From NCBI GenBank assembly GCA_016782645.1, contig JADHYC010000019.1, forward strand, positions 1 through 38,542: DNA of 38,542 bases, given 5' to 3'. Both the position numbers and the translations under genes were made by a program. This document shows, in pieces, positions 758 through 33,638 of this stretch; the first letter of the stretch is position 1, and each line of letters begins with the position of its first letter. This DNA comes from Fidelibacterota bacterium (GTDB lineage: Bacteria > Fidelibacterota > UBA2242). A model generated the notes under the pieces. The model saw only the letters and a program-made list of their open reading frames with translations, did not search any database and had not been told where the DNA came from.

Positions 758-773
758 GCATTTTGAGGTAAAG

Positions 774-5100: not shown

Positions 5101-5374
5101 CTTTGAGGGTCTCTGGTTTGATATTTACAGAAAGGTGCTCAGACACAATGAAACCCTCGGTGACAGCGGTCTGGATAAATCCCAGTTAAAGGAGGTGGTG
5201 ACAAGTATCTTCATTGCCCAATCACAGCGGGGTGTTGTGAGACCTTTGAAACTCAACGGATTTACCGAATCGGTTATGAAAATAGTGTCTGAAATTAAAG
5301 ACAGGAGTACTCAGGAAAAGGTTTACAAAAGCATTAATGATATTATTAAAACAACTAAATCGAAAGGAGGCTGA
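5081..5374 (+). CDS. Small hypothetical operon protein
   Basis: The protein has 97 residues, starting at ATG 5081 after GGGAG and overlapping the previous gene by 20 bases. It is helical with a conserved-looking IFIAQSQRGVVRPL core. An in-frame start at 5006 is possible but would lie deep inside the upstream gene without a ribosome site. Its function is unknown. It belongs to the clamp operon by spacing. Confidence 0.6.
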   Translation: MNYSNYDFEGLWFDIYRKVLRHNETLGDSGLDKSQLKEVVTSIFIAQSQRGVVRPLKLNGFTESVMKIVSEIKDRSTQEKVYKSINDIIKTTKSKGG

Positions 5375-5375
5375 G

Positions 5376-5588
5376 ATGCCGTTATATGAGTTCAGGTGCA
5401 CACATTGTGATAATCTTTTTGAACAGATCCAGCCTTATCACGCCGACTGGCCACTGTGCCCGGTATGCGGATCGGAGACTATGAGAATTATGAGTTCATC
5501 CAGTGTAAAGTTCAAAGGATCGGGGTTCCATTGTACGGATTACACCAAACACGGCCGGGTCAGACATCATCATGTGAATAAAACATGA
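5376..5588 (+). CDS. FmdB-type zinc-ribbon protein
   Basis: The 70-residue protein opens with MPLYEFRCTHC and carries a second pair, CPVCG, then the typical tail leading to VKFKGSGFHCTDY. This is the FmdB/CxxC_CxxC_SSSS regulatory-protein zinc ribbon (the SSSS run is visible). Members are widespread small proteins, often described as putative regulators, with no settled biochemical role. AAAGGAGG lies 6-13 bases upstream. The stop overlaps the next start (ATGA). Confidence 0.85.
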   Translation: MPLYEFRCTHCDNLFEQIQPYHADWPLCPVCGSETMRIMSSSSVKFKGSGFHCTDYTKHGRVRHHHVNKT

Positions 5589-7485: not shown

Positions 7486-8688
7486 TTAGCCATGATTAGG
7501 AACGAATTTCACCTGTTTAGTCAGGATAGCAAAGATAACTCTCAACAGTTTATTCCAGGTAGCGATGACTGCCTTTCGATAGGCCATTCCTTCTTCTCTT
7601 TTTCGAATGTAATAGTCTCGGAAAACACCATCGTGCCGAATAACCGAACAGGTAATGAGATAACCGACTCTTCTCAGGCTACTTACGCCCCGTTTGGATA
7701 TTTTCCCTCTTTTGATCATTTTTCCAGACTGTTTAACACTGGGGTCGGTACCGGCATAGGCAATCAGTTGTTTATAATTAGAGAAGCGCTGAATATTTTT
7801 CACTTCACTGAGGAAGTGACAAGCGGTGGTATCGCCGATGCCTTTAATGGACTTCAGGATTTCCAGTTCATTGCCAAAGCGCTTATTAACGTTATCAATC
7901 AATTTACTTGTGACTTCATCCAGATGTTTTTGAAGAAATACAAGATGCTTAATATCAAACTTAATCGCCATTTCCAGGCTTTCATCCGCAGTACCGATGG
8001 AATATTTGGCCAGATCAAAGAGTTGATCCGGGTTCATATCCGGCTTTTTCCCTCTGGATTTAGTCGGATTGTAGAAGATTTTTTGGATTCTTTTTTTTGT
8101 GGCTTTTCTAATTGCTTTAGCAGAAGGGAACTGTTCCAGAATTTGCAGAAATGTATCGGTAAATACATTGGCATGTTTCAACAATTCAGGGAAGGCAATA
8201 TTCAGCATTTGCTTCAAGTGTGTTTTGGTTTTACCAACATCTCGTGTAATGGATTCTCTGAGTCTGGCAAGTTGAGTAAGATAAGCGGAATCAATTTCAG
8301 TCATGGCAAATATGCTGTGTTGTCGATAAATCAGAAACCTTGCAATAGCGATAGCATCTACGGCATCGGTTTTTGTTTTTCTCAGGGAATCGGCTTCCGC
8401 AAACTTCTTTACCAGGGCTGGATTTAAGAGGTAAACATGTTCAGTAAGAGAGAGCAGAAAAGACATGATATTGACGTGATAAGTTCCGGTGGATTCGAAC
8501 CCGACTACAACGTTGGGAAACGATTCAATCAGTTGACTAATTTCTTGTCCCAGAAGGGAATCTTCGATAAAGCCATCTCTATTCATTTGAAGAGATCCTT
8601 TCTTGATGATGGTATTGTGCGTATCCATGGCGGCATAGTCAAACTTGTCCTTCGATACATCAATACCAATGTAAATGGGTGTTTGCAT
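7486..8688 (-). CDS. IS110-family DEDD transposase
   Basis: The protein has 400 residues. The RuvC-like DEDD domain is marked by D10 (YIGIDVSKDKFD), E65 (FESTGTYH), D108 and D111 (KTDAVDAIAIAR). The C-terminal Transposase_20 domain shows IKGIGDTTACHFLSEV, AYAGTDPSVKQSG and KISKRGVSSLRR with the catalytic serine region. The length is normal and no frame break is visible, so the gene may be active. In this family the enzyme works with a bridge RNA encoded in the element's own non-coding end. Confidence 0.92.
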   Translation of the reverse strand: MQTPIYIGIDVSKDKFDYAAMDTHNTIIKKGSLQMNRDGFIEDSLLGQEISQLIESFPNVVVGFESTGTYHVNIMSFLLSLTEHVYLLNPALVKKFAEADSLRKTKTDAVDAIAIARFLIYRQHSIFAMTEIDSAYLTQLARLRESITRDVGKTKTHLKQMLNIAFPELLKHANVFTDTFLQILEQFPSAKAIRKATKKRIQKIFYNPTKSRGKKPDMNPDQLFDLAKYSIGTADESLEMAIKFDIKHLVFLQKHLDEVTSKLIDNVNKRFGNELEILKSIKGIGDTTACHFLSEVKNIQRFSNYKQLIAYAGTDPSVKQSGKMIKRGKISKRGVSSLRRVGYLITCSVIRHDGVFRDYYIRKREEGMAYRKAVIATWNKLLRVIFAILTKQVKFVPNHG

Positions 8689-11529: not shown

Positions 11530-12306
11530 TTAGCCTTCCGTTCCATTCATATCAATAAGCTCCTTTTCAGTTTTTTCTTTTAGCCGAAAACTTTTCCCAC
11601 GAATATTCAGCACAATACTATGATGAAGCAACCGGTCTAAAATAGCCGTCACGATTATCGGATCATGGAACATTTCCGTCCAGTCACTAAATGCCTTATT
11701 AGAAGTAATAATGGTACTGGCTTTCTCGTATCGATTGGCGATAAACCGGAAAAACAAGTTACATTCTTCCCTGGTGATCGGTGTATAGCCGACCTCATCG
11801 ACGATCACCAGCGCTGATTTATAATAGCTTCTTCCTTTACCTCTGCGATTGGACTCGTGGTCTTTCTTGAGTTTCTTGATCAGATCCTCCATCGTAGTAG
11901 AATAAATGCTGAACCCGGACTGACAGGCTTTAACGGCCAATGCCACGGCCAGATGGGTTTTACCAACGCCTGGAGGCCCGAGGAAGATGACATTCTGTTT
12001 ATATTGGATAAATGTCAGATCGAACAACGACATTACTTTTTGCCGATCAAGTTTTGGCTGGAAGGCAAAATCGAACTCATCAATGGTTTTAATAAATGGC
12101 AAGCCGGATATTCTGAGATTCGTTTCCACACGACGTTGTTCTTTTTGGGCAACCTCTTCATCGAGTAATTCATCCAGGAAGGCCAGATGGCTTTTACTTT
12201 TTTCTTCGGCAGTCTTAATAACCGCCTGAAGGATCTGACTGATTCGAGGTAACCGTAAGCGGGTCAGATTGGCTTCCACTCTTTCAAGGATCAAACTGTC
12301 GCTCAT
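11530..12306 (-). CDS. istB: IstB-type transposition helper ATPase
   Basis: The 258-residue AAA+ protein carries Walker A GPPGVGKTHLAVAL, Walker B LVIVDEVGY and the IstB N-terminal helical region (LPRISQILQAVIKTAEEKS). IstB loads on target DNA and recruits the IstA transposase. Its start overlaps the istA stop by 4 bases, the standard coupled arrangement. Length and frame are intact. Confidence 0.93.
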   Translation of the reverse strand: MSDSLILERVEANLTRLRLPRISQILQAVIKTAEEKSKSHLAFLDELLDEEVAQKEQRRVETNLRISGLPFIKTIDEFDFAFQPKLDRQKVMSLFDLTFIQYKQNVIFLGPPGVGKTHLAVALAVKACQSGFSIYSTTMEDLIKKLKKDHESNRRGKGRSYYKSALVIVDEVGYTPITREECNLFFRFIANRYEKASTIITSNKAFSDWTEMFHDPIIVTAILDRLLHHSIVLNIRGKSFRLKEKTEKELIDMNGTEG

Positions 12307-13577
12307 AAACCAGCTCCGCAGGCATGGTCATAAACGCTAACCGGACGGATTTCCACATCCATTTCATACAAAGGTTTTGAGGGACTGATCGTCTGTTTCG
12401 CTTGTCCTTTCGGACGGCGGCTGCTACTATGATATTTTCGTGCATTCATCTCTTTGTCACGACGCAAGGCCTCGTAAAAACGTTTGTCCTGCACCAAATG
12501 TCCCTTTCCGTCCGGAATGATATAAGCCACAATAAAATGATCATTACTAAACACTTTTATGGTCTTGTCTTTTACCCGCAAGATCACTTGTTGATCTACC
12601 AAAGAATGAGGAACGACATAACTGTTACCTTCAAATCTAATGGTGCAGTCTTTGTGAACTTTACGATATACCCGATACGAAGTATCAAATGCCAGGATCG
12701 GTAATGACTGAAGATGAGGCTGTTCCCGGATAAATCTCCGGGACACAATCTCATGGGTGGTACCATGGACCCGTTCATCTTTTTTCTTTAACCAGGCTTG
12801 CAGATCACGATTAGCGGTTTCAAGATTAATGAAACCGTATCCGCGCCAGAAGCCTTCCCGGATAAAGGAATAGGGGCGCTCTATTTTGCCTTTAACCCAG
12901 GCAGCGTAAGCGGGGGCAACTTTAGGCGTAAATCCATAGTGCAAAGCAAAACCTGTCAGGGTTGTATTGAATTTGTGTTTGCCGGCTATCTTACCGATAT
13001 ACACATTCTTCATCCGGTCATACAATATCTCCTGCGGAACACCACCAAAATATTCAAACGCCCGTATATGACAATCTAAAAAAGTTGGCAGATCGCACTT
13101 TCGGATTAACTCAGCGTATATCTTCCGGGAATAACCCAAAATCATTGAAAACAAGTAGTATTTATCAATGGTGTCGTCTGCGTTTATCACTTGGAACTCA
13201 CCAAAATCAACCTGGGCCTGGTATCCCGGTTCGGTCTCAAATCGAAGATAGGCCAAGCGACTGCGCTCCGTTTTTAAAGCCTTTACCCGACGTTTGACGA
13301 TCTCATAACTACCATCAAATCCTAATGAAATCAAATGGTCGTAAATCCAGGTCCCTGTGTATAAAATGTCATCTTCCAGCCAAGCCTCAATATTTCCACT
13401 AAAGGGATCGAGCTTACTATCTCGTTTATGGTTGGTTCTGTTGTGCATCCAGTCCGGATTCTCCAGATATTTCTTTACGGTCTTGCGATGAATACCAAGT
13501 TTCCTGGCTATTCCTCGCTCTGAATATCCTTGTCGTTTTAATGAAAGTACATCCAAAATTTCCTCCAGAGTTTTCAT
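12303..13577 (-). CDS. istA: IstA-type DDE transposase
   Basis: The 424-residue protein has an N-terminal helix-turn-helix (GYSERGIARKLGIHRKTVKK) and an integrase core with the first acidic residue in YQAQVDFGEF and the second in PQEILYDRMKNV. A C-terminal beta domain and basic tail (HSSSRRPKGQAKQ) follow. It cuts and joins the element ends with IstB. The frame is uninterrupted, so the element could be active. It is somewhat shorter than the ~500-residue IS21 prototype but within the family range. Confidence 0.92.
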   Translation of the reverse strand: MKTLEEILDVLSLKRQGYSERGIARKLGIHRKTVKKYLENPDWMHNRTNHKRDSKLDPFSGNIEAWLEDDILYTGTWIYDHLISLGFDGSYEIVKRRVKALKTERSRLAYLRFETEPGYQAQVDFGEFQVINADDTIDKYYLFSMILGYSRKIYAELIRKCDLPTFLDCHIRAFEYFGGVPQEILYDRMKNVYIGKIAGKHKFNTTLTGFALHYGFTPKVAPAYAAWVKGKIERPYSFIREGFWRGYGFINLETANRDLQAWLKKKDERVHGTTHEIVSRRFIREQPHLQSLPILAFDTSYRVYRKVHKDCTIRFEGNSYVVPHSLVDQQVILRVKDKTIKVFSNDHFIVAYIIPDGKGHLVQDKRFYEALRRDKEMNARKYHSSSRRPKGQAKQTISPSKPLYEMDVEIRPVSVYDHACGAGL

Positions 13578-14101: not shown

Positions 14102-14716
14102 ATGAACACAACTCTCCCCGGGCGAACTATGCCCACACTGGAAGATGTATTATTACCAATAACCAATGAACAGGACGATGAATTATCGCCTTTTGAATTA
14201 ATTGATTCACAGGAGAAAGACTCTTCTCCTGATCCCGGTGATCTGCTCGACATCACAGATTTCTTCAAAGCCGATGTCGCAGTCATGAAACTCATCTACC
14301 TGCAGGATCGCATGGATGAGATCGACGATCTGTACCACAAAGAACTCGATCACCTGAACCGTTGGAAAGAGCAGCGTACTGCTATCTTACAGCGTCAGTA
14401 TAACTTCTTCAGCAGGTCCCTGGAAAACTGGCTGACAGTCTCAAACCGGAAATCCGCCAACCTGCCCCACGGCAAGCTGATATTCCGCAAGCAGCCGCCC
14501 CATGTGGATATTCTGGATGAGGATACGGTGTTGAAAAAAGGTCTGTTTATACGGATAAAGAGATTACCTGACATGGCTGCTATCCTGAAACATTACAAAG
14601 CCACTGGCGAAATCCCGGATGGCTGCGACATTATTGAACCGGAACCAAAGTTCTCAATCAAATTAACCCCTGGAAAGGAGCATGCCAATGTACAGTCCCC
14701 AAATTCACCTCATTAA
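14102..14716 (+). CDS. Mu Gam-like host-nuclease inhibitor
   Basis: The 204-residue protein starts after AAGGAGG. The first ~60 residues are acidic and probably disordered. The rest has the Gam layout: a long helix (MDEIDDLYHKELDHLNRWKE), then QYNFFSRSLENWL, the turn NLPHGKLIFRKQPP, VDILDEDTVLKK, and a C-terminal part with IPDGCDIIEPEPKFSIKL. Gam-like proteins are Ku-like binders that coat double-stranded DNA ends and protect phage or conjugative-element DNA from host exonucleases. The gene's composition and its leader repeat tie it to the clamp operon at the start of the window. No phage structural gene is present. Confidence 0.8.
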   Translation: MNTTLPGRTMPTLEDVLLPITNEQDDELSPFELIDSQEKDSSPDPGDLLDITDFFKADVAVMKLIYLQDRMDEIDDLYHKELDHLNRWKEQRTAILQRQYNFFSRSLENWLTVSNRKSANLPHGKLIFRKQPPHVDILDEDTVLKKGLFIRIKRLPDMAAILKHYKATGEIPDGCDIIEPEPKFSIKLTPGKEHANVQSPNSPH

Positions 14717-14774
14717 CGAAATGCTGGGAAAGTCCATCGCCCTGGTAGAATCCGTATTAGCGCGGGCGCCTTAA
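14688..14774 (+). CDS. 28-residue ORF overlapping the Gam-like gene
   Basis: AAAGGAG stands 9-15 bases ahead of ATG 14688. The product MYSPQIHLINEMLGKSIALV is followed by ESVLARAP and stop. It overlaps the Gam-like stop by 29 bases, like other coupled genes of the clamp operon. It is probably the stump of a longer gene: its last ten codons lie inside the 197-bp direct repeat that starts at 14742, suggesting that recombination or insertion cut it there. Confidence 0.4.
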   Translation: MYSPQIHLINEMLGKSIALVESVLARAP

Positions 14775-14938
14775 GACCGGTTTGCGGATGTATTGAACAG
14801 ATTAGATGTAAGATATTGAATATCTTGAGTTTGTTGTATAGAGGGTAAATTTGAGCGGTTTAAGATTCATTTTACCCACAATTGTTACCTGTCATTGATT
14901 TGTCTAAAACTGCTTTGCATGAAGAAAGAATAGAGGGA
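14742..14938. repeat. ~197-bp imperfect direct repeat, copy A
   Basis: This stretch matches 26617-26814 in the same orientation at roughly 85% identity by eye. Shared words include GCGCCTTAAGACCGGTTT, GAGCGGTTTAAGATTCATTT and GAAGAAAGAATAGAGGGA. Copy A contains a perfect 17-base palindrome (AAGATATTGAATATCTT, 14810-14826) that is eroded in copy B. The two copies frame the WYL/AAA/nuclease segment. Nothing codes in it except the end of the 28-residue ORF. Confidence 0.85.
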
Positions 14939-15035
14939 TTAATATCCTTCTATTTTTTTAGCCTTTAGTTGAAATATTGTTGAAAATGGTTTTTATGATT
15001 GGTAGTTTCATACAGGAAACAAGGAAAGAGGAGTC

Positions 15036-16034
15036 ATGCCTGACCTAAAACCCCTAGAACGCCAAATCCGAATTCTTCAGCAGTTTACGCTGAAAAAAGA
15101 ATTGACGGTCGATCTTCTTTTTGAACTTTTTGAACGATTAGTGTCCAAGCGAACAATTCAACGTGATTTAATTGCGCTGACTGCCGCCAATGTGCCACTA
15201 AATGAAAGACGAGGCGCGCATGGACAGATTCACTGGTCCTTAAATCCGAATTATCTGAAATTCATACCGATGACGCTTGGCGTTGATGAAGTTATTTCGT
15301 CCCTGCTCCTGAAGCGCCTGGGCAGTATCTTCAGAAATACACCGATTGCAGAAGATATTGCGGAATTGGACAAGAAACTCAAACAACTTATCACTGATGA
15401 TGTATTATCAACCAGTGATGATCTACAGAACCTGGAACCCTTTTTTAGTTCCCTGCAATTTGGCTATATCGATTATAGTGACTGTGGCGAACAACTTCAG
15501 AAATTTCTTAATGCGGCAATCAATAAAAGAATATGCAGTGTTATTTACAAAGCGGCTTATTCCGAAAAACCAAAAAGATATTTGATAATGCCCTACTCTT
15601 TGTTGTTGCATCGAGGAGCGTTTTACGGCATTGTGTATCAACCCAATCATAAAAGTTATATTCACCTGTTAATCCACCGAATCCAGAAGATCGATGTATT
15701 GAACAAATCTTTCCAGAGAGATCCGGATTTCAAATTAGAAGAATTCATATCAACGGCATTAGGTATCTGGCACGATAAGCCCGAAAAAGTCCGGATTAAA
15801 TTCTTTCCGGATGTCGCTACCCGCATCGCCGAGCGAATCTGGCAGAAAGATCAAAAGATTGAAAAGCAGGATGGCGGCTCAATAATTCTGGAATTAAATG
15901 TAGCAGTGTCATATGAATTAGTTGCCTGGGTTCTGCGCTGGGGCTCATTTGCGGAAGTATTATCACCGCCCAAATTGATTGAGATGGTCAAGGCGGAAGT
16001 AAAAAACCTCAATAAAATTTACTTTGATAAATAG
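15036..16034 (+). CDS. WYL-domain transcriptional regulator
   Basis: The 332-residue protein opens with a winged helix-turn-helix (LEQRIRILQQ-like start, then SKRTIQRDLIALTAANVPL). It is followed by a WYL domain (CSVIYKAAYSEKPKRYLIMP, SLLLHRGAFYGIVY, IHRIQKIDVL) and the C-terminal extension typical of WYL regulators (KVRIKFFPDVATRIAERIW; LRWGSFAEVLSP). Such proteins often repress defence operons and respond to nucleic-acid ligands. It is the first gene after repeat A, with GGAAAGAGGAG ahead of the ATG, and all genes to 22620 lie on the same strand behind it. Confidence 0.88.
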   Translation: MPDLKPLERQIRILQQFTLKKELTVDLLFELFERLVSKRTIQRDLIALTAANVPLNERRGAHGQIHWSLNPNYLKFIPMTLGVDEVISSLLLKRLGSIFRNTPIAEDIAELDKKLKQLITDDVLSTSDDLQNLEPFFSSLQFGYIDYSDCGEQLQKFLNAAINKRICSVIYKAAYSEKPKRYLIMPYSLLLHRGAFYGIVYQPNHKSYIHLLIHRIQKIDVLNKSFQRDPDFKLEEFISTALGIWHDKPEKVRIKFFPDVATRIAERIWQKDQKIEKQDGGSIILELNVAVSYELVAWVLRWGSFAEVLSPPKLIEMVKAEVKNLNKIYFDK

Positions 16035-16048
16035 AGATTGGAGTTTAT

Positions 16049-16580
16049 ATGGAAGGTGTTTTTTCTTTACCCTATTCAGAATATGAGGTGATTAATCAAT
16101 TACAAAAAAAACTGAAAAAATCAGAGGGTTATTCTTTTTATATTCCTACAAGTAGACAACAGAAAGGAATAGATTTTATCATTCATATATTCACCGTCCG
16201 AAAAAATTAAAATCTGGCAAAACTACTGAGGTCAAATATAAATATTCCTTATGGTTTAATAATTTTCTTGATAGATATGAAAAAGATAATGCTGATTTTT
16301 ATATTTTATTTGGGCTATATCCAATGTATCAAAAAAATAAGAATATCAAATCAAAAACGGTTTTTTGGAAACCGCTATTAATGTGTTTCTCAGAGAATGA
16401 AATGATTGATCTTCTAAAACAGGTACGAACAAAGAAAGAAAAAAACCCGATAGGTTTTTTGGATTTGCCTTTAATACAAAAGAACAAATATTTGGAACAA
16501 GGGGATTAGAAGAAGATATTGATCTTTCTGACTTTCTCTTAGACCATAAATACCGTGATATTAAAAAAATACTAGAGTGA
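16049..16580 (+). pseudogene. PD-(D/E)XK nuclease-like gene broken by two homopolymer frameshifts
   Basis: Three frames read in order give one continuous ~177-residue protein. Frame 1 has SLPYSEYEVINQL and TSRQQKGIDFIIH, frame 2 has KTTEVKYKYSLWFNNFLDRY, and frame 3 has FNTKEQIFGTRGLEEDIDL, ending at TGA 16578. The D of KGIDF and the E-V-K of TEVKY form a PD-(D/E)XK pattern. Frame 1 is lost in an A6 run near 16200 and frame 2 in a T6 run near 16455. One extra base in each run restores the frame (532+2 bases = 178 codons). This may be real decay, phase variation or sequencing error. It lies 14 bases after the WYL gene. Confidence 0.7.
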
Positions 16581-16697
16581 ACAACCTATTTTAAATTAAT
16601 ATATAAAATTTTTCCTGATTATTTAGAACGACATAATCTGACCACCTGAATAATTATATTTACTTCTGATATTGATATTTGAATATTGGAGGTTGTG

Positions 16698-18506
16698 ATG
16701 AGTATTAATACGTCTCTAAGTGAGCGATTAATTCTGGTTGCTCAATTATATAAGAAAAATAAAAACAGGCTCGCTCAGCAGGTCCGTGATGAGATAAAAT
16801 CAATTCAAAAGATGAAATATTTTCCTGCCCAGGTTCAGCAAAAAGATATTTTAGTTATTGCTGTAATCTGGCACGGAATTTCATCGGCAGAAGATACAAA
16901 ATATGCTCCTATTGATCTATTGAATAAAATATTCGGCGACCAAATTCGTGCTCTCCAGAATTTAGATCGGATTGTGAAATTAATAAAACTCGGAATACTT
17001 GATTCACAATCAAAAAAGATCGATAAAAATTCAAAACAACAAAAAGTAAAAGTAACTATTGAAAAGGAAACACTGTTTAAAGCAGATATATCTTTGTCGA
17101 GTCGTTTTTTAAAAAAATTAGTCTATAATCGAAATCTATCAATCGATGAAAATAATCCTTATACAACAAACAGAGAATTCATGAATGATTGGTTTGCATA
17201 TGTTGATGCAGCTAATGATTTATCTTCAGCCAGATTTCATTATTATTTGGACAATGAGCCCGAGGAAGAATTGTACAATGTAACCGTAAAATGGCAGAAT
17301 CTCCAGGCCAAGCTCGAAAAAACAAAAAAATGTTTTCCTTTCAATAGTATTACTGATGAATACAATCTGGATCACAAAGAACAAATGATCGTTATGTATT
17401 TACTTAAAGAAACAATTGACGGATCAGATTGTGATGTTAATGAATTATTACAATTGATCAGCCAGGATCGATATGAATTAATCAAGAATGAGACATACTT
17501 ATCGGATAATGCAAATTTAATACTTAATGGTATTGTTGAGAAGAGAGATGGTTTTGGATTTAGATCCAGAACAGAAGTACGCCTGTGTTCTACGATGTTA
17601 AGAATATTATTAGATGAAAATCCACTTAATAAAGAATGTGAGATAAAAGAGATACTGCGTGGTAATCCATTCTTCACGATTGTGCACCCCAAACAGAATA
17701 TGAATGATCTGATCCTTGAAGAAAGTATCAAGCAAACCCTTGTAAAGAGTTTAAAACTATACCAAAAAAATGTATCCGGGATTTTGGCACAATGGGGAAT
17801 AAGCGGCAACAATGAAACTAAAAATCCAGGCACGTTACTTTTGCTTTATGGTCCTCCCGGAACCGGTAAAACCTTTTGTGCCGGAGCTGTATCAAACTAT
17901 CTGAACAGGTCTCTGATCACAACAGACATTTCAAAAATCTTATCAGCATGGGTAGGAGAAAGCGAACAAAATGTCAGGAGTATATTTTTAACCTATGATA
18001 GAATTGTAAAACGTCTGCAAGAACCACCGATATTATTACTTAATGAAGCCGACCAGTTTTTGACAAAACGAGGTGAAGCGCAACGGTCGGTTGATAGAAT
18101 GTATAACCAGATGCAAAATTTATTCCTGGAGGCATTTGAAAACTTTCAGGGAATATTAATCTGTACCACTAATTTAAGAGGTAATCTGGACCCTGCATTT
18201 AGCCGTAGATTTCATTTGAAATTACAGTTCCCTTTTCCAAAGATTAATGAAAGAATAAAATTATGGCATCTCCATATACCAGGGAGCGTTCCCGGTGTGA
18301 ACGAGATTGACATTAATCATTTAGCGTCAAGGTATGAATTAAGCGGCGGACAGATTTCTGTTGTTATCAAAAATTCCGCTACTGAAGCTGCCGGGAGAAA
18401 GGGTCATGAAAAGATTTTAAAGCAAGAGGATTTGGAAAAATTCTGCTTACTGGAATTAAACTCCTCTTTTGAAAACACTCAAAAAAAATATGGCTTTGCC
18501 ATTTGA
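16698..18506 (+). CDS. AAA-family ATPase with helical N-terminal region
   Basis: The 602-residue protein starts at ATG 16698 after TTGGAGG. The first ~330 residues are helical with winged-helix-like parts. The AAA module has Walker A GPPGTGKT (385-392), a variant Walker B with Asn-Glu (LLLNEAD, N449/E450), sensor 1 TTN (about 490-492) and arginine fingers R503/R504 in FSRRFH. The first Asp of Walker B is replaced by Asn, as in some CDC48-like bacterial ATPases, and the catalytic Glu is kept. It probably forms a ring that remodels a partner. Its position between a nuclease gene and a small 79-residue gene, behind a WYL regulator, suggests a defence-type complex. Confidence 0.85.
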   Translation: MSINTSLSERLILVAQLYKKNKNRLAQQVRDEIKSIQKMKYFPAQVQQKDILVIAVIWHGISSAEDTKYAPIDLLNKIFGDQIRALQNLDRIVKLIKLGILDSQSKKIDKNSKQQKVKVTIEKETLFKADISLSSRFLKKLVYNRNLSIDENNPYTTNREFMNDWFAYVDAANDLSSARFHYYLDNEPEEELYNVTVKWQNLQAKLEKTKKCFPFNSITDEYNLDHKEQMIVMYLLKETIDGSDCDVNELLQLISQDRYELIKNETYLSDNANLILNGIVEKRDGFGFRSRTEVRLCSTMLRILLDENPLNKECEIKEILRGNPFFTIVHPKQNMNDLILEESIKQTLVKSLKLYQKNVSGILAQWGISGNNETKNPGTLLLLYGPPGTGKTFCAGAVSNYLNRSLITTDISKILSAWVGESEQNVRSIFLTYDRIVKRLQEPPILLLNEADQFLTKRGEAQRSVDRMYNQMQNLFLEAFENFQGILICTTNLRGNLDPAFSRRFHLKLQFPFPKINERIKLWHLHIPGSVPGVNEIDINHLASRYELSGGQISVVIKNSATEAAGRKGHEKILKQEDLEKFCLLELNSSFENTQKKYGFAI

Positions 18507-18518
18507 AATGGAGGGGAA

Positions 18519-18758
18519 ATGAATTACAAAAAATTGATGGAACTTCTCAATAATATTGATAAGAGAACGCCTGAAATAATTGACACAACAACGAGCGAAA
18601 CTGAAAAAATCATGGCTCTAAATGCTGTATATCTAATGAAACTTGAGCATATTGATAATTATATCGCTGAAAATTGTTATGACGCTAATATCAGCCGGGC
18701 TTTTAGGATGTTTAGTGATATAACCGTAAAAGCAATTGATGATCTGCAAAAATTGTAG
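18519..18758 (+). CDS. Small helical protein paired with the AAA ATPase
   Basis: The 79-residue, mostly helical protein has no recognised domain. ATGGAGGGGAA precedes ATG 18519 and the gap to the ATPase gene is only 12 bases, so the two are cotranscribed and the protein is likely an adaptor or substrate of the ring. Confidence 0.65.
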   Translation: MNYKKLMELLNNIDKRTPEIIDTTTSETEKIMALNAVYLMKLEHIDNYIAENCYDANISRAFRMFSDITVKAIDDLQKL

Positions 18759-18802
18759 AAAATGAATCGCGAGCAGATGAATAATGTATAACAGGATATT
18801 GC

Positions 18803-18831
18803 TTGACATGGGGAGAGTGATTATTTATATT
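18803..18831 (+). promoter_or_regulatory. Sigma-70 promoter upstream of the nuclease-like gene
   Basis: A consensus TTGACA (18803-18808), 17-base spacer and TATATT (18826-18831) precede the next gene by about 185 bases. It gives the downstream genes their own transcription start. Confidence 0.55.
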
Positions 18832-19015
18832 CAAACGTGATTGGATTGGTTGTGATTAGCATATATAGAGTATGAAAACCAGACGATATAATTTGTGTTG
18901 ACAAAGACATTTTAGTAACAATTGACCCTGTAAAATGTGATAGCGACAGAAGACAGAGAAAAAGAAAGGTATGCACATAACATCGGCTATAAACAAGCGG
19001 GCTGATAGAGGTAAA

Positions 19016-20545
19016 ATGAAATCATTATCTGTATTTAAATGTGACAATAGACTCAATTTATTTTATTCATTTGATCACGGAAGCACAAAATCTCCAGATA
19101 AGAATATACAGTTGGAAGACAATATAACTCGAAGTTTTATTTTAACGCTTTGCAACTTAAGTCATAAAAACATTGTTAGTTTTCTTGAAAGGATACTACC
19201 AAATCGAATTGAAATAGATAAAGGAAATAATATTGTTTTTGATTTGCAATCTCGTAATGATTCTACGAGTTTTCTTCGTAATGGAAGAAACACTAATATT
19301 CAAAATAGTTTCGTTTTAACAATTTCTAATCACAAACAAAAGATTTCTTTAAATAATAAACAAAAGGAAAAAATTAATTGTATTAACAAGATCGGTGATG
19401 ATAGAAAAAGATATCTAAAAAGGATCAAATCAATTTGGAAGAAGAATCAAGTTAATTATTTAGAATCTATACCGGATACTTTTTGTATTCAACAATTTGA
19501 AGAAAAGGAAATATTGGGTTTCTATGAATTATTATCAGAATGTAGACCAGATGGTTGGATAATTGGTGATAATTTTCAAATCCTTATTGAAACCAAAATT
19601 GGAAGTAACAAAATATTTGTTCCACAAATTTATCGCCATATTACAGATGACAAAGGTTTCGGATTTAAAACATGTACACCAAAACAATTTAATGATCTTG
19701 TAATCAATTGCACTTGGACAGATGTATTACAATACTTTAATGATTTGGAAAATATCAACAATACGGAAAAATTTCTAATAAGCGAATTTAAGGAGTACTT
19801 AGTTATGAATGGTATTGTTCTAGATTTATCATTTATCACCGAACTAAAAAAGGGATATAAACGAGAGACTGCAAGAAAACAATTTCCTTTTTTACTTGAG
19901 AAACTAGATGAAAAGATTTCATCTCTTAATCTTAGAGATTTTAAAAGAAGTAATAGACCAAAATCAGGGCATTTGTGGGACTATTATGGACGGGCAATGT
20001 TAGAAAGAAATAAGAATACAAATAAAATGAAAGAAATTGTGAAGTTAGACCCACACTACTCAATATATTTTGATCAACCCGGTGCCGGTGTAGGATTTAC
20101 AATAAATAATAAGACTCAAGTTAAAAAGTTATTAAATGAAGATTTCATTAATTATTTGAGAGAACTCCAAGAAAAAACTGATCAAGTAAGTCTGATGAGG
20201 TATTATTTTGGTCTTATAAATTACCGTTTAATTGACCATAAAAAAGGTCAAATAAAAGGTGACACTCGGGAAACTTTTAATATGAGGATTTTTCTTTCAG
20301 AATTAAAAAATTCGACAATTCCGATAAAGACAGTTATGGACGATATGGTTAAATATTTTAAACTTGCAAAACAATTTGAGTTTGGAATCATAGTGTTATA
20401 CCCCAATAGGAACAGTAATATCAAATCTGAAAAAGGATTAAAGAACTCGAATATAAACTTATTTAAGAATCCTGATGAACTTCTTGATCTCTTCACAGAA
20501 TTTATAAAAGATACATATCATTATTTTGACAATTTATCGAGATAA
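19016..20545 (+). CDS. PD-(D/E)XK nuclease-like protein, 509 residues
   Basis: ATG 19016 follows AGAGGT at usable spacing; ATG 18971 is in frame but its purine run almost touches the codon. Around 177-200 lies the pattern RPDGWIIGDNFQILIETKIG: D179, E192 and K194 in the order D-(12)-E-x-K, the core of the PD-(D/E)XK fold, followed by PQIYRH. The protein is lysine-rich and strongly AT-coded compared with its neighbours, which suggests recent transfer. A role in cleaving foreign DNA or RNA is plausible. No specific family is recognised. Confidence 0.6.
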   Translation: MKSLSVFKCDNRLNLFYSFDHGSTKSPDKNIQLEDNITRSFILTLCNLSHKNIVSFLERILPNRIEIDKGNNIVFDLQSRNDSTSFLRNGRNTNIQNSFVLTISNHKQKISLNNKQKEKINCINKIGDDRKRYLKRIKSIWKKNQVNYLESIPDTFCIQQFEEKEILGFYELLSECRPDGWIIGDNFQILIETKIGSNKIFVPQIYRHITDDKGFGFKTCTPKQFNDLVINCTWTDVLQYFNDLENINNTEKFLISEFKEYLVMNGIVLDLSFITELKKGYKRETARKQFPFLLEKLDEKISSLNLRDFKRSNRPKSGHLWDYYGRAMLERNKNTNKMKEIVKLDPHYSIYFDQPGAGVGFTINNKTQVKKLLNEDFINYLRELQEKTDQVSLMRYYFGLINYRLIDHKKGQIKGDTRETFNMRIFLSELKNSTIPIKTVMDDMVKYFKLAKQFEFGIIVLYPNRNSNIKSEKGLKNSNINLFKNPDELLDLFTEFIKDTYHYFDNLSR

Positions 20546-20619
20546 AGTAAAGTAAATCGTCTGTAATAAAAGAAGTTTTAATTAATTCTATTAAAATAAG
20601 TGTATTGAAGATTAGGAAA

Positions 20620-22620
20620 ATGCCCAAACACCTCACCAAATCCCGTTTTGCTGTAGCACTGCAATGCCCGACTAAATTGTACTATCTGGATAAATCAGAA
20701 ATATACGCCAACCAGAAAGTTGAAAACGATTTCCTTGAAGCCCTTGCCGAAGGCGGTTTTCAGGTTGGTGAATTGGCAAAGTATTACTTTCCAGGTGGAA
20801 CTGATATTAAAACGCTCAAATATGATGAGGCGTTAGCCCAGACAAATGAATTGCTCAAACAGGATAATGCTATCATCTATGAAGCGGCGGCTAAGTTCGA
20901 GGATTTCTTCATCCGCATTGATATTCTGAAAAAGACCGGCGATGTGCTTGAATTAATCGAAGTCAAAGCCAAATCATTCCATCCGGAAGAAGACAGTTTC
21001 ATAAATACTAAAGGTTATATAAACGGCGGATGGCTGCCTTACTTGCAGGACGTTGCTTTTCAGACGTGGGTAACAGAAAAAGCGTTTCCGGATTATAATA
21101 TTGAGCCTTATCTAATGTTGGCTGATAAATCCAGTAAAACTACAGTCGATGGATTAAACCAGATATTCCGTGTTAGAAAGAACGAGCGCGGCAGAAAAGA
21201 AGTTTCGCTGACGATTCCTGAAATCACTTCTGATATTCTGGGAGAAAAAATACTGATCAAGATTCCGGTTAGACCATACGTTGATCAGATATTACGAGGG
21301 CTTGATAAAGATCCTGACAAAAAAAGTTTGGAAGAACAGAAATCATTCATCAAACGTGCAAGGGAATATGCCCGGTATTATAAGAACGGTGAAAAATATC
21401 CGGTTGAAATCGGCTCCAAATGCAAGGATTGTGAATTTAGCTGTAATGAGGAAGCCCAATCTAAAGGATTGAAAGACGGATTTATAGAATGCTGGAATGA
21501 AGCGACAAACGGTAAATTCGATCCTTCAAAATCCCATATATTTGACGTCTGGAACTTCCGTAAAAAGGATTCATTAATTGCCGGCGGTAAATACTATATA
21601 GAAGATGTCAAAGAATCTGATATAGCGCCAAAACCGGATGGCAAGCCCGGAATTTCCGGATCTGAAAGACAATGGCTGCAAATTCACAAAGAGAATATGA
21701 GAGATACAGAACCATACTTTGACGAAGAGGGTTTGAAAGAAGAAGGATTAAACTGGCGCTACCCGTTACATTTCATTGACTTTGAAACCAGCGCTGTCGC
21801 TATTCCCTTTAATAAAGGTCGCAGACCCTATGAAGGAATCGCCTTTCAATGGTCCCATCATATCTATTATCAGAATGGCACATATGAACATAAAGGGCAG
21901 TTCCTGAATACTCGTAGAGGCTGCTTCCCAAATTTTGAGTTTATCAGATCACTTAAAAAGGAACTTGAGAACGACGATGGAACTGTCTTCCGATACGCAG
22001 CCCATGAAAATACTTTTCTGAATATTATATATTCCCAATTAAGTGAATCTACAGATGAAGATATTCCGGACAAAAACGATTTAATGGAATGGATTCAAAC
22101 AATTACTCATTCTACATCAAGCGCGCCTGATAAATGGGAAGGAACCAGAGATATGGTTGATATGTGGAAACTGGTGAAACGTTATTACTATCACCCTTAT
22201 ACACATGGTTCAAATTCTATTAAAGCAGTATTACCGGCAATATTGCGATCAAGCGAATATCTACAGGAAAAATATGACAAGCCGATATATGGGGCAAAAG
22301 ATGGAATAAAGAGTCTTAATTTCAAGGACTGGATCTGGATCCAAACTGATGAAAATGGACAGGTAATGGATCCTTATAGATTATTGCCGCCTCTGTTTGA
22401 AAATATTGGTGATGATGAATTGGATGGTTTTGTTGGTGACGCAACATTATGTGACGGCGGCGCGGCAATGATGGCTTATGCCAAAATGCAGTTTTCAGAT
22501 ATCAGCGATTTAGAACGTCGGAAAGTTGAAGAGGGTTTATTGCGATATTGTGAGCTTGATACACTTGCAATGGTGATGATTTGGGAGTATTGGAAAAATT
22601 TAACGTATGATTATTCGTAA
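20620..22620 (+). CDS. DUF2779 protein: Cas4-like nuclease fused to a DEDD exonuclease-like domain
   Basis: The start is ATG 20620 (TTAGGA upstream), giving 666 residues. The N-terminal part (LTKSRFAVALQCPTKLYY, C16) with D101 and E114-x-K116 (ELIEVKAKS) is Cas4/RecB-like. C268, C271, C275 and perhaps C16 or C291 could hold a 4Fe-4S cluster. The second half is DUF2779, an RNase H-fold region with IDFETS (D387, E389), AAHENTF and YCELDTLAM, matching DEDD exonuclease motifs. The fusion is known in bacteria but its biological role is not settled. Its composition is less AT-rich than the nuclease-like gene upstream. Confidence 0.85.
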   Translation: MPKHLTKSRFAVALQCPTKLYYLDKSEIYANQKVENDFLEALAEGGFQVGELAKYYFPGGTDIKTLKYDEALAQTNELLKQDNAIIYEAAAKFEDFFIRIDILKKTGDVLELIEVKAKSFHPEEDSFINTKGYINGGWLPYLQDVAFQTWVTEKAFPDYNIEPYLMLADKSSKTTVDGLNQIFRVRKNERGRKEVSLTIPEITSDILGEKILIKIPVRPYVDQILRGLDKDPDKKSLEEQKSFIKRAREYARYYKNGEKYPVEIGSKCKDCEFSCNEEAQSKGLKDGFIECWNEATNGKFDPSKSHIFDVWNFRKKDSLIAGGKYYIEDVKESDIAPKPDGKPGISGSERQWLQIHKENMRDTEPYFDEEGLKEEGLNWRYPLHFIDFETSAVAIPFNKGRRPYEGIAFQWSHHIYYQNGTYEHKGQFLNTRRGCFPNFEFIRSLKKELENDDGTVFRYAAHENTFLNIIYSQLSESTDEDIPDKNDLMEWIQTITHSTSSAPDKWEGTRDMVDMWKLVKRYYYHPYTHGSNSIKAVLPAILRSSEYLQEKYDKPIYGAKDGIKSLNFKDWIWIQTDENGQVMDPYRLLPPLFENIGDDELDGFVGDATLCDGGAAMMAYAKMQFSDISDLERRKVEEGLLRYCELDTLAMVMIWEYWKNLTYDYS

Positions 22621-23231: not shown

Positions 23232-26174
23232 ATGAAAAAGAGTTATAATTCAATTTATCTTAAATTGTTCTTACTATTTTTAATTATTTCTCTTTGCACT
23301 TTCATTGCTTGTACACGAACAACAAAAGTTACAAGTGGTAAGTACAGTTATGAAACCGTTAAAAACGATCCGTTAAAAGCAAGGATTTATAAACTTAATA
23401 ACGGTTTGACTGTTTATTTGACTGTATATAAGGATGCCCCGAGAATACAAACTGCTATTCCTATAAAGGTAGGCAGCAAATACGATCCTTCGGATAATAC
23501 TGGAATGGCACATTATCTTGAGCATTTACTATTTAAAGGAAGCGATGAATTTGGCACCAAAGATTGGGAAAAGGAAAAAGTGGAAATAGATAAAATAATT
23601 GATCTTTTCGAAGTTTATCGTCAAACGATAGATTCGCTAAAGCGAATTGCTATTTATCATAAGATTGATAGTATCTCCAGCATTGCTTCCTCATACGCAA
23701 TTGCAAATGAATATGCTAAAATGTTGAACTCAACTGGCGCATTAGGAACCAATGCTTTTACTTCTGTTGAGCAAACCGTATATATCAATGATATTCCAAC
23801 CAATCAATTCGAAAAATGGCTTTCCATTGAATACGAGAGATTAAAAGATCCAGTCATGAGGCTTTTCCACACAGAATTAGAAGTTGTTTATGAGGAAAAA
23901 AATAGAAGCCTTGATAACGATTGGAGCAAGGTTTATGAATCTTTAAATGCCGGTTTGTTTCAGAAGCACCCCTATGGCACCCAAACGGTACTCGGAAAAG
24001 TTGAGCATTTAAAAAATCCATCAATGAAATCGGTTATCGAATATTACAATACCTATTATGTACCCAATAACATGGCAATATGTCTCTCCGGTGATTTCGA
24101 TCCAGACTCAATCATCCAAATTATTGATGCAACATTCGGACAACTAACCGCTAAGGATATTCCTTCCTATTCTCCACCAATAGAAGATCCGATTTCAGAA
24201 CGAATTATCAAAGAGGTTTGGGGACCAGACGCAGAAAGTGTTTCACTAGCACTCAGGTTTCCCGGGGCTTCATCGAAAGAAACTGATCTTTTAATAATGA
24301 CTGATATGATCTTGATGAACAGTACCGCTGGTTTGATTGATCTAAACCTGAATCAAAAACAAAAGGTGATCGATGCCTATTCATACCCAAGAATAATGAA
24401 AGATTACTCTTATCATGGTTTGGGAGCCAGAGCCAGAGAAGGTCAAAAACTTGAGGAAGTAGCAGAATTGCTCATTGGGCAAATTGAGCTAGTAAAGAAA
24501 GGTGAGTTCCCAGATTGGCTGCCCAAGGCTGTAGTAGCCGATTTAAAGTTAAATAGAATTCGAAGTTATGAAAATAACTGGCCTCGCGCTTTTGCCTTCG
24601 TACAAGCATTCACAATGGATGTACCCTGGGAACGTTCTGTCCGTGAATTAGACCGTCTTAGTAAGATCACGAAACAGGATATTATTGATTTTGCCAGAAA
24701 GAACTATAGTGATAACTATGTCGTAGTCTACAAGAGAACCGGTGAAGATAAAAAGGTTAAAAAAGTAAAAAAACCTAAGATTACACCTATAGAACTTAAT
24801 AGAACAGACCAGTCTGATTTTGTAACAAATATTTTGAAGATGAAAGTGGAGGATATTCAACCGGTATTCTTGGATTTTGAAAAAGATATCAAGCATTTTG
24901 CTATTAAAAATAAACTCCCGGTTTACTATAAGAAAAATACAGAAAACAATCTATTCAATCTGTACTATATTCTAGATATGGGGACAGATCATAATAAAAA
25001 AATAGGTGTCGCTCTGGATTATCTGGAATATCTAGGCACTTTAAAATATTCCCCCGAAGAAGTGAAACAGGAATTTTATAAAATAGGCTGTTCATTTAAT
25101 GTACATAAATCGAGAGATCGGGTATGGGTCAGTTTATCGGGATTGACTGAGAACTTTATGCAGGGGCTTAAACTTTTCGAACATCTTTTAGCAAATGCTC
25201 AACCAAATCCCGAGGCACTAGATAATTTAGTAAAAGACATTCTTAAGAAACGAGCCGATGATAAACTATCAAAATGGCGTATTGGTGGAGCAATGAGATA
25301 TTATGGAAAATATGGAACCCAATCTCCTTTCACCAATATTTTAAATGAAAAAGAATTAAATAATTTGCATCCGAAAGAACTGATTGACATAATTAAACAG
25401 ATCAACGGGTATGAGCACCGTGTGCTCTATTATGGTCCTAATGACAAAGGCACTTTAATTTCCTCTTTAAATCAGTACCACAATTTCCCAAAAGAATTAA
25501 AACCAATTCCTGAACCTACAACATACAGTGAATTACCTACTAATGAAAATAAAGTATATATAGTTGATTATGATATGAAGCAAGTGGAAATTCAGATGCT
25601 TTCAAAAAGTGAACCTTTTAACAAAGACAATCTTCCAATTCGATCTCTATTCAATGAATATTATGGAGGCAGTATGTCTTCAGTTGTATTTCAGTCCATG
25701 CGCGAATCTAAAGCACTTGCCTATTCAGTTTATGCCGCCTATCTGAATCCGCCCAACAAAGAGGAATCACATTACATCTCCTCATATATCGGCACACAAG
25801 CGGATAAATTACCAGAAGCAATGGCGGGATTTTTTGACCTCCTGACGAACATGCCAGAATCGGATAAATCTTTTACAGCCTCGAAAGATGCTATAATTAA
25901 TAGAATAAAACCCGAGCGAATCACAAAGACAGACATCTTAATGAGATATGAAAGAGCAAGAAAATTTGGATATGATCATGACGTTAGAAAAGACCTCTAT
26001 AATGATATTCCAAAATTTAAAATTGAAGATATAAAGACATTTTTCGAAAAATACATCAAAAATAAACAATACACGATCCTCGTTCTTGGTGATGTTAAAA
26101 AACTGGATACCAGAGAGCTTTCTAAATATGGAAAAATTAATTTCCTGACACTGGAAGATATTTTTGGCTACTAA
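23232..26174 (+). CDS. M16-family zinc metalloprotease, predicted lipoprotein
   Basis: The 980-residue protein starts after AACAGGAGG. Residues 1-27 form a lipoprotein signal (hydrophobic core, then TFIAC with C27). The inverted zinc motif HYLEH is at 94-98, and the third ligand is expected in the ELEVVYEEKNR segment about 120 residues later. The length fits a two-repeat pitrilysin/insulinase-like chain: an active N-terminal half and an inactive C-terminal half that closes the chamber. It probably degrades peptides at the periplasmic face. It stands alone under its own promoter and is not obviously linked to the nuclease island. Confidence 0.9.
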   Translation: MKKSYNSIYLKLFLLFLIISLCTFIACTRTTKVTSGKYSYETVKNDPLKARIYKLNNGLTVYLTVYKDAPRIQTAIPIKVGSKYDPSDNTGMAHYLEHLLFKGSDEFGTKDWEKEKVEIDKIIDLFEVYRQTIDSLKRIAIYHKIDSISSIASSYAIANEYAKMLNSTGALGTNAFTSVEQTVYINDIPTNQFEKWLSIEYERLKDPVMRLFHTELEVVYEEKNRSLDNDWSKVYESLNAGLFQKHPYGTQTVLGKVEHLKNPSMKSVIEYYNTYYVPNNMAICLSGDFDPDSIIQIIDATFGQLTAKDIPSYSPPIEDPISERIIKEVWGPDAESVSLALRFPGASSKETDLLIMTDMILMNSTAGLIDLNLNQKQKVIDAYSYPRIMKDYSYHGLGARAREGQKLEEVAELLIGQIELVKKGEFPDWLPKAVVADLKLNRIRSYENNWPRAFAFVQAFTMDVPWERSVRELDRLSKITKQDIIDFARKNYSDNYVVVYKRTGEDKKVKKVKKPKITPIELNRTDQSDFVTNILKMKVEDIQPVFLDFEKDIKHFAIKNKLPVYYKKNTENNLFNLYYILDMGTDHNKKIGVALDYLEYLGTLKYSPEEVKQEFYKIGCSFNVHKSRDRVWVSLSGLTENFMQGLKLFEHLLANAQPNPEALDNLVKDILKKRADDKLSKWRIGGAMRYYGKYGTQSPFTNILNEKELNNLHPKELIDIIKQINGYEHRVLYYGPNDKGTLISSLNQYHNFPKELKPIPEPTTYSELPTNENKVYIVDYDMKQVEIQMLSKSEPFNKDNLPIRSLFNEYYGGSMSSVVFQSMRESKALAYSVYAAYLNPPNKEESHYISSYIGTQADKLPEAMAGFFDLLTNMPESDKSFTASKDAIINRIKPERITKTDILMRYERARKFGYDHDVRKDLYNDIPKFKIEDIKTFFEKYIKNKQYTILVLGDVKKLDTRELSKYGKINFLTLEDIFGY

Positions 26175-26616: not shown

Positions 26617-26814
26617 CTAGTGGAATCTGTATTGACGCGAGCGCCTTAAGACCGGTTTACGGAGATAATAAACAAATTAGAGGTTAAGGTATAGAATATC
26701 TTGAGCTTGTTGTGCAGAGAGCAGATTTGAGCGGTTTAAGATTCATTTTACCCGCAATTGTTACCTGTCATTGATTGGTCTAAAACTGCTTTACATGAAG
26801 AAAGAATAGAGGGA
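26617..26814. repeat. ~198-bp imperfect direct repeat, copy B
   Basis: This stretch matches 14742-14938 in the same orientation. Both edges are sharp by eye: unrelated sequence lies before CTAGTGGAATCTGTATT and after GAATAGAGGGA. It lies between the relic region and the tRNA genes. Confidence 0.85.
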
Positions 26815-27251: not shown

Positions 27252-27326
27252 TCGGGGTGGCAGGATTCGAACCTGCGACTTCCTGCTCCCAAAGCAGGCG
27301 CGCTAACCGGGCTGCGCTACACCCCG
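27252..27326 (-). tRNA. tRNA-Pro(UGG)
   Basis: The minus strand reads acceptor CGGGGTG, D arm, anticodon stem CCTGC/GCAGG with loop TTTGGGA (anticodon TGG), T arm GCAGGTTCGAATCCTGC, acceptor CACCCCG and discriminator A. The 26 bases of its 5' end are duplicated 112 bp away at 27413-27438. Confidence 0.93.
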
Positions 27327-27387: not shown

Positions 27388-27438
27388 GCGACTTTCCCGC
27401 CCTGGCGGGACTCGCTAACCGGGCTGCGCTACACCCCG
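27388..27438 (-). pseudogene. Decayed tRNA-Pro copy with replaced anticodon arm
   Basis: The 26 bases at 27413-27438 are identical to the 5' end of the tRNA-Pro gene, and GCGACTT also matches beyond the anticodon arm. The anticodon stem-loop itself is replaced by CCCGCCCTGGCGGG, a short palindrome. The T arm and 3' acceptor are missing. Confidence 0.7.
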
Positions 27439-30206: not shown

Positions 30207-31175
30207 ATGAACAGATGTGCAGCAATGATCAATAAGCAAAACCAGACAGCTATCCTCGTTGAAGCTGCCCGGCTGTATTACGAGCATCATTTTAGTCAGC
30301 AGCAAATTGCTCTGAAACTTGGTATATCCAGACCCGGGGTTTCAAGGCTTTTAAAAAAAGCCCGCGACAATGAGATTGTAAGAATAAAAATAATTGATCC
30401 TACAGAGTACGGGACCAACCTGGAAAATAAAATAAAGCAAAAATTTAATCTCATAAAGGTTATTGTCGTACCGGCAGATGACGAAAATATAGGTATAATA
30501 AAAAAAAGGCTGGGTGCAGCTGCCGCAATGTTGCTCGATGAATTAGTAAACCCGGGAATGACCCTTGGAGTTTCCTGGGGAACAACAATGCAGGAAGTTG
30601 CGAAGCAAGTGAAGAACAGATCAGTAAAAAATATGATTGTCGTACAGTTAAATGGCGGTGTATCACGTGCTGAATATGATACCCATGCCAGTGAAGTTGC
30701 CCAGAAAATCGGGGAAGCCTATAGCGCCATTCCCTATCTCCTTCCTCTTCCCGCGATTGTTGATAGGGAAGACGTAAGAAGAGCGATAGTTTCAGATAAA
30801 AATATTGCCCATACTTTGCAAATTGCCCGGGAAGCCAAAGTTGCTATGTTCACGATTGGATCTTTTGGATATGATTCAGTACTGGTAAAATCCGATTATT
30901 TCGAAAAAGAAGAGGTGGATTCTTTAATAAAACGAGGCGCCGCTGGTGATATATGTTCACGAATAATCAATTATAACGGAGAAATTTGTTCTGAAGATTT
31001 GAATTTACGGACTATCGGGATTGAACTGTATGAATTACAGAAAAAAGAATATTCAATAGCTGTCGCAGGCGGAAAGGAAAAATTACCCGCTATCCAAGCC
31101 GCCTTAAATGGAAAGTTATTCAATGTTTTAGTGACCGATGAGTGGGTGGCAAACAAACTATTATCAGAAAATTAA
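30207..31175 (+). CDS. SorC/DeoR-type sugar-phosphate-responsive regulator
   Basis: The 322-residue protein has an N-terminal helix-turn-helix (FSQQQIALKLGISRPGVSRL), then the SorC effector domain (MTLGVSWGTTMQEVAKQVK; VVQLNGG; GDICSRIINYNGEICSEDLN; VAGGKEKLPAIQAAL). This is the family of Bacillus subtilis DeoR, which responds to deoxyribose 5-phosphate. As first gene of an operon with DeoC and RpiB activities, it probably senses a pentose phosphate and autoregulates the operon. The ATG at 30207 has a weak ribosome site. ATG 30225 is an alternative. Confidence 0.88.
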   Translation: MNRCAAMINKQNQTAILVEAARLYYEHHFSQQQIALKLGISRPGVSRLLKKARDNEIVRIKIIDPTEYGTNLENKIKQKFNLIKVIVVPADDENIGIIKKRLGAAAAMLLDELVNPGMTLGVSWGTTMQEVAKQVKNRSVKNMIVVQLNGGVSRAEYDTHASEVAQKIGEAYSAIPYLLPLPAIVDREDVRRAIVSDKNIAHTLQIAREAKVAMFTIGSFGYDSVLVKSDYFEKEEVDSLIKRGAAGDICSRIINYNGEICSEDLNLRTIGIELYELQKKEYSIAVAGGKEKLPAIQAALNGKLFNVLVTDEWVANKLLSEN

Positions 31176-31188
31176 AATTGAATTTATT

Positions 31189-32604: not shown

Positions 32605-32627
32605 TCAAGATCTAAAAGGAGAAGAAA

Positions 32628-33251
32628 ATGGTTGACCTTCGTGCTTATGTATTTTTAGATAATTTGCAACCCCAGTACGCCGCATATCTGGGTACTGTTG
32701 CCAAAGGATTTCTGCCTATTGCCGGAATGGCTTCTTTGTATATTGAAATTTCTCCCGGCATTGAAATTAATCGGATCACGGATATTGCGCTCAAATCGAC
32801 AGATGTCACACCGGGAATGCAAATTGTCGAGCGTTTGTATGGAATGCTGGAGATTCATTCGGAGTCGCAGGCAAACGTACGCCAGGCAGGCAGCGCCATC
32901 TTGAATGCCCTGGAGTTAAAAGAGGAAGATCGCTGGAAACCGAAAATCTTTTCAAAACAGGTTATTAGACGTATCGACGATCATCAGACTCAGCTAATTA
33001 ACAGAATGCGGTTTGGAAACATGATTATTCCCGGTCAGACAATGTTTGTAATGGAAGTACAGCCAGCCGCCTATGCTGCACTTGCCGCCAACGAAGCTGA
33101 AAAAGCGGCTGAAATCAATATCCTGGATGTGCGTGCTTTTGGTAGTTTCGGCAGAATATATCTTGGCGGAGAAGAGAGGGATATAGATGTTGGCTGGCAG
33201 GCGGCAGTCAAAGCTATCGAAGATGTAACGGGAAAAGTTCAAGAAAAATAA
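32628..33251 (+). CDS. BMC-T shell protein, permuted CsoS1D-like
   Basis: The 207-residue tandem-domain protein has [20 protein letters not shown] at the start, [34 protein letters not shown], and [20 protein letters not shown] followed by [18 protein letters not shown]. These are hallmarks of the circularly permuted, double-stacking trimers (CsoS1D/CcmP type), whose large central pores are thought to be gated. The pseudohexamer sits in the shell facets and may pass CoA-sized molecules. AAAAGGAG precedes the start. Confidence 0.88.
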
Positions 33252-33623: not shown

Positions 33624-33638
33624 GTTACCGGAGGCAAA

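Follow-up and report, generated by a model that had tools for sequence, protein, structure and literature searches.

A six-gene cassette at positions 15036-22620, in which a WYL-type regulator heads an AAA ATPase, a 79-residue companion protein, candidate nucleases and a DUF2779 protein, probably serves anti-invader defence in the broad sense. It lies in a window of 38,542 nucleotides, the whole stretch of DNA analysed, which forms the start of contig C3 in a 2.56-Mb metagenome genome of a marine Fidelibacterota bacterium; relatives in this phylum are named Candidatus Neomarinimicrobiota. All six genes are present on the same strand, as the original prediction had described, and five of them are intact, including the WYL regulator, the AAA ATPase, the 79-residue protein and the DUF2779 protein. 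Its proposal of a candidate defence set also holds up, in that relatives adjoin BREX, McrBC and Zac genes and the cassette occupies a mobile cargo slot. No earlier description of this gene combination was found in the family libraries and papers searched, while its WYL and DUF2779 parts belong to known families.

The first gene (15036-16034, forward strand) encodes a 332-residue transcriptional regulator with HTH, WYL and WCX parts. Pfam profiles for WCX (PF25583, 7e-18) and WYL (PF13280, 2e-8) both score above their cut-offs, the N-terminus gives a weak HTH match (HTH_11) below its cut-off, and WYL proteins in the PDB match at about 1e-6. Copies occur in the relative G066 (92% identical; contig C28, locus L191) and at locus L036 (73%). 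The same HTH-WYL-C-terminal build characterizes BrxR, whose family members act as repressors at defence islands (PMC9122601). Like them, the window regulator heads a defence-like operon; unlike them, it stands in a cassette without BREX genes, PADLOC finding no PglX, BrxC or PglZ core gene there, and its sequence identity to the family is low. A 15-nt imperfect inverted repeat (87%) at 14925-14958 is a candidate site only, of the kind that BrxR-like regulators bind at their own operon. Some WYL factors sense or bind single-stranded DNA and respond to DNA damage (PMC10693628), and the window protein may likewise be an infection sensor.

The ATPase (606 residues; 16686-18506, forward strand) consists of an N-terminal region of about 330 residues, with a weak winged-helix match below its cut-off (PF22977, 1e-5), and a classic AAA domain (PF00004, 1e-25). 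It carries a Walker A motif (GPPGTGKT), a Walker B motif (NEAD), paired arginines that correspond to arginine fingers (SRRF) and a pore loop (WVG). An AF2 model with a pLDDT of 81 retrieves proteasome ATPases, p97, Rix7, Msp1 and katanin in Foldseek, so that Walker motifs, arginine fingers, aromatic pore loop and fold all agree with those of classic AAA protein remodellers. AAA rings of the p97, proteasome and Msp1 kind thread proteins, which makes protein remodelling the likeliest role. Judged by its motifs and modelled fold, the ATPase is thus probably of this protein-remodeller type rather than a DNA motor.

Homologues of the ATPase occur in 14 of 245 genomes of the phylum at E<=1e-20, about nine of them full-length. 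Its tree contains one clade of 51 rows, nearly all from Campylobacterota and without WYL neighbours, and otherwise patchy lineages that include Marinimicrobia, Cloacimonadota, Zixibacteria, Planctomycetota, Chloroflexota, one Dojkabacteria MAG and others. Since the Campylobacterota homologues sit in conserved chromosomal neighbourhoods that lack WYL genes, the ATPase family is not confined to defence. The 19 rows with a WYL neighbour all fall outside this Campylobacterota-dominated clade, and the trait changes 9 times on the tree against 17.4 times when shuffled, a value that none of 500 shuffles matched or undercut.

Thirteen nucleotides past the ATPase begins the gene for the 79-residue protein (18519-18758, forward strand), for which no family was found. 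In G066, a copy 87% identical follows the ATPase (contig C242, locus L024), where a longer opposite-strand open reading frame overlaps it. An HMM built from these two copies detects another one downstream of the G111 ATPase (E 6e-4) that has diverged and carries a frameshift; the arrangement is certain for the window and G066 and likely for G111. With these copies in G066 and G111, the pairing holds within a sub-lineage; the sequence comparisons indicate that the small protein is a real companion of the ATPase, as had been proposed. The ATPases of G066 and the window are 64% identical overall, with 53% in the first 360 residues and up to 92% near the end. G066 therefore combines a WYL gene at 92%, a small protein at 87% and an ATPase at 64% whose identity rises sharply toward its 3' end, a pattern that reads as a sign of allele exchange.

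The last gene (20605-22620, forward strand) encodes a 671-residue DUF2779 protein (PF11074, 4e-23; 82.6 bits against a cut-off of 23.3) that joins a Cas4-like PD-(D/E)XK domain to a DEDD 3'-5' exonuclease domain. Fifteen aligned homologues share four invariant cysteines (21, 273, 276 and 296) and keep D106, E119-x-K121 and D392-x-E394, and the full-length rows also contain a YCELD motif. By residue conservation, both the DEDD and the Cas4-like active sites of the window protein are intact. DUF2779 has been classed among 3'-5' exonucleases of the RNase H-like clade with a PD-(D/E)XK-like domain (PMC3985635), and the window protein agrees as a family member that retains the residues of both sites; the available passages of that source differ in naming no partner genes or role. 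No description of DUF2779 linked to WYL or AAA genes, or of a WYL/AAA/MBL set, was found in the literature searched, a body from which subscription papers were mostly absent. Homologues 44-54% identical adjoin PglZ and BrxL, WYL and BrxL, or McrBC with SbcCD-like genes on contigs of a viral collection, and one in the same phylum adjoins MBL and ZacABC genes.

Between the 79-residue and DUF2779 genes lies a variable slot that here holds a large candidate PD-(D/E)XK-like nuclease (18971-20545, forward strand). The original prediction gave it 509 residues, which corresponds to the ATG at 19016; from the first ATG at 18971 the protein has 524. Both the reading frame and the motif are present, but the protein matches no sequence in Pfam, PADLOC, NCBIfam, PHROG or PDB, and so its assignment as a nuclease is a motif call. 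The motif comprises D194, E207-x-K209 and Q219 and agrees in alignment with two PDDEXK_4 proteins. It is also kept in a protein whose gene neighbours are a Type ISP restriction gene and one for a PLD nuclease, and to which an 86-residue stretch is 35% identical. The single-gene nucleases that PADLOC lists as PDC-S26, or PDDEXK_4, share this D...ExK...Q arrangement; they differ in that the large protein matches none of their HMMs in Pfam or PADLOC, and hhalign against two PDC-S26 proteins gives a probability of 0.1%. A single-sequence AF2 model (pLDDT 34) yields no usable fold. In Segatella, a PDC-S26 protein adjoins an AAA ATPase and a WYL gene.

Homologues of the large protein were sought in 199 genomes of the same phylum, with one weak fragment-level match as the sole return, and none was found in 125 genomes of a second phylum, in genomes with other cassettes, or among plasmids, phages and viral contigs; nor does the protein stand beside any other ATPase or cassette found. 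It is best regarded as a predicted PD-(D/E)XK nuclease. The other candidate nuclease gene, at 16049-16580 on the forward strand between WYL and ATPase, continues to code across three frames and is therefore a broken gene with two or more frame changes, which may stem from an assembly error rather than from real mutation. The frameshift proposed earlier is thus present, but the accompanying label of a small PD-(D/E)XK protein depends on a short motif (GIDFIIH...TEVKYK) that matches no family, and 244 genomes of the phylum contain no confident relative.

The cassette belongs to a foreign block of 11.9 kb bounded by direct repeats of about 200 bp, whose left (14742-14938) and right (26617-26814) copies, both on the forward strand, are 87% identical and are the only two in the genome. 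Elsewhere, only an integrative element in this family of bacteria is known to carry the repeat, on three contigs of two relatives, G030 and G089. On two of the three contigs it directly follows a Gam-like gene 88-91% identical to the Mu Gam-like gene of the window (14102-14716, forward strand; PF07352, 9e-13). Past the repeat, these elements carry other cargo, a small gene resembling an excisionase and a tyrosine integrase, after which two of the three contigs have a tRNA; in the window, tRNAs lie to the right. No integrase was seen within the window, which would fit an element that survives as a remnant or one that continues past the end of the contig. Comparison of these sequences, with island borders judged from genome slices, places the cassette as apparent cargo in a repeat-bounded slot of this integrative element.

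Further features accompany the element. The foreign block also contains an M16 peptidase gene (23232-26174; GC 35%) with a lipoprotein-like start, absent from 15 other genomes of the family searched. The left part of the island carries an IS110-like transposase (7486-8688) and an IS21 istA/istB pair (11530-13577), recognized from translations, and phage- or element-like replication genes occupy 148-5588, one of which (3236-4312; PHROG 947, 8e-40) encodes a sliding-clamp homologue. A 26-base piece of tRNA-Pro (27301-27326) recurs 112 bp away at 27413-27438 as a possible integration scar. Farther right, microcompartment shell-like, aldehyde dehydrogenase-like and RpiB/DeoC-like genes (31138-36667) likely form a metabolic microcompartment operon.

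Outside the window, the WYL, ATPase and DUF2779 genes recur together in several phyla. WYL and ATPase genes are often adjacent, frequently with a shared strand and a gap of 50-100 nt, and DUF2779 is found no more than a few kb from one or both at eight loci, the window included; at one of them (L052) it is a distant homologue, and two are cut off by the contig end where the ATPase would be expected. With the window excluded, the ATPase and DUF2779 share a genome of the phylum 3 times against 0.37 expected (p 0.004, a figure that ignores relatedness). The supposition that homologues never co-occur, which the original prediction had named as its refutation, is thereby itself refuted, with the 79-residue protein again standing beside the ATPase.

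The link among these three genes is nonetheless loose. Among 15 further WYL homologues, 7 adjoin an ATPase, 2 lie at contig ends and 6 have no full-length ATPase; across the phylum, several WYL and most DUF2779 homologues stand without the ATPase. In G066, the 92% WYL copy is on a separate contig from the ATPase, and no ATPase follows it. The slot between ATPase and DUF2779 changes as well: it holds a 326-residue protein and an MBL hydrolase at L036, and a 336-residue protein and an MBL hydrolase at L052, while in G066 the ATPase is followed by the small protein and then an MBL hydrolase. Relatives of the ATPase adjoin McrBC, Zac, DUF262-type and DUF2779/MBL genes. GC content separates the genes too, at 41% for WYL, 40% for DUF2779, 35% for the ATPase and 28% for both the large nuclease and the broken gene, against 44% in the flanks. 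Together, loose linkage, variable slot contents and the GC split fit a reused frame of WYL, ATPase with the 79-residue protein, and DUF2779, between which genes are exchanged; the low, uneven GC is in keeping with swapped middle genes. The proposed trio of ATPase, small protein and nuclease is accordingly kept in its first two members, within a sub-lineage, and as a unit it is rejected for the nuclease, which was not found in other cassettes or, beyond one weak fragment-level match, in the genomes, plasmids, phages and viral contigs searched.

Other neighbours recur around these genes. MBL-fold hydrolases, of RMMBL type where tested, are found near the ATPase/WYL/DUF2779 set at seven loci, often with a partner of 220-340 residues to which no family was assigned. 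Proteins starting with SGRMSVGRFE lie beside the ATPase or DUF2779 at three loci. On one IMG/VR contig that bears phage terminase- and portal-like genes, an McrBC pair is directly followed by the ATPase.

Comparison with named systems yields partial matches only in PADLOC, Pfam, NCBIfam and PHROGs, so the earlier claim that the set fits no named defence system stands for the libraries and literature searched. The best PADLOC and NCBIfam match of the AAA domain is IetA (2e-29 and 5e-27), the ATPase of the IetAS system, which pairs it with the protease IetS. The window ATPase differs in its N-terminal region, and the cassette carries nucleases instead of a protease. IetAS is rejected at 94.9 bits against the 510 of the IetA equivalog; PADLOC finds no IetS subtilisin-type protease among the cassette proteins, the sole protease nearby being the M16 peptidase. 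The TRIP13/Pch2 arm of CBASS follows the same logic, in that an AAA ATPase that remodels proteins works with a small partner, but the resemblance is confined to the AAA core (1e-9), and CBASS is rejected with no CD-NTase cyclase or HORMA protein among the cassette genes in PADLOC. IetAS and TRIP13-type remodelling are the closest in logic, while membership in either fails.

Gene content, intact active-site residues, fold class, the ATPase/small-protein pairing, recurrent linkage and mobile context form the observed basis for a mechanism in which operon expression, the signal, the remodelling target, nuclease activity and phenotype are supposed. As a modular, WYL-controlled mobile-cargo cassette directed against invading DNA, this mechanism has somewhat less than an even chance of being right. 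The WYL protein would hold the operon low until its WYL domain picks up a nucleic acid or nucleotide that signals infection or DNA damage, and would thereupon release or activate it. The AAA ring could then use the 79-residue protein as an adaptor or substrate and remodel a partner, most likely to free or load a nuclease effector. The PD-(D/E)XK-like protein would cut invader (or host) DNA, and the DUF2779 protein with its Cas4-like and DEDD domains would trim or degrade DNA ends. The motor-sensor-effector logic suggested before keeps its ring with a small partner; given the unfoldase-like ATPase, its motor should be taken for a protein remodeller, not a DNA motor, and the nuclease it included is not conserved.

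The cassette may act as a single machine or as several separate ones. The main rival is a tentative reading as a stack of independent defence genes, in which a WYL/ATPase/small-protein unit, a stand-alone PDC-S26-like nuclease and a stand-alone DUF2779 nuclease would sit at the same place and might use one promoter without acting through a common mechanism. Each part is found without the others elsewhere, GC varies gene by gene, a gap of 213 nt separates the small gene from the nuclease reading frame, and the nuclease slot is not conserved, all of which favours a stack. Independent genes would sit less easily with the repeated occurrence of WYL, ATPase and DUF2779 within a few kb in several phyla and in the same genomes above expectation, or with an ATPase and small protein that stay paired.

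Two other explanations appear improbable. A stress or DNA-repair module, in which WYL senses damage-derived single-stranded DNA and the unfoldase and nucleases process the cell's own broken DNA, with defence incidental, draws on the damage response of some WYL factors (PMC10693628), on the suitability of Cas4-like/DEDD nucleases for end processing and on the wide, conserved presence of the ATPase family in Campylobacterota; the mobile-element cargo slot, patchy distribution and low GC argue against it, as do relatives next to BREX, McrBC and Zac genes. Slightly more improbable still is that the cassette serves the integrative element itself in competition or maintenance, through superinfection exclusion or addiction. 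The cassette does directly follow the element's Gam-like gene between its repeats, but sister elements carry other cargo at the same place, and relatives of the cassette lie outside this element in other phyla.

The preferred reading of a WYL-controlled cassette against invading DNA has a more specific form, an undescribed modular immunity in which a WYL-switched unfoldase of the p97/proteasome type and its small adaptor arm interchangeable effectors, either nucleases or hydrolases, alongside a Cas4-like/DEDD exonuclease; in this full form it is rather unlikely. If true, ring-ATPase protein unfolding would join the ways of arming a bacterial defence nuclease, and DUF2779 would gain a cellular setting. 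It would also supply a testable pair of ATPase and small adaptor, and the swapped middle genes, with their MBL hydrolases and PD-(D/E)XK nucleases, would become a shelf of effector candidates for screening.
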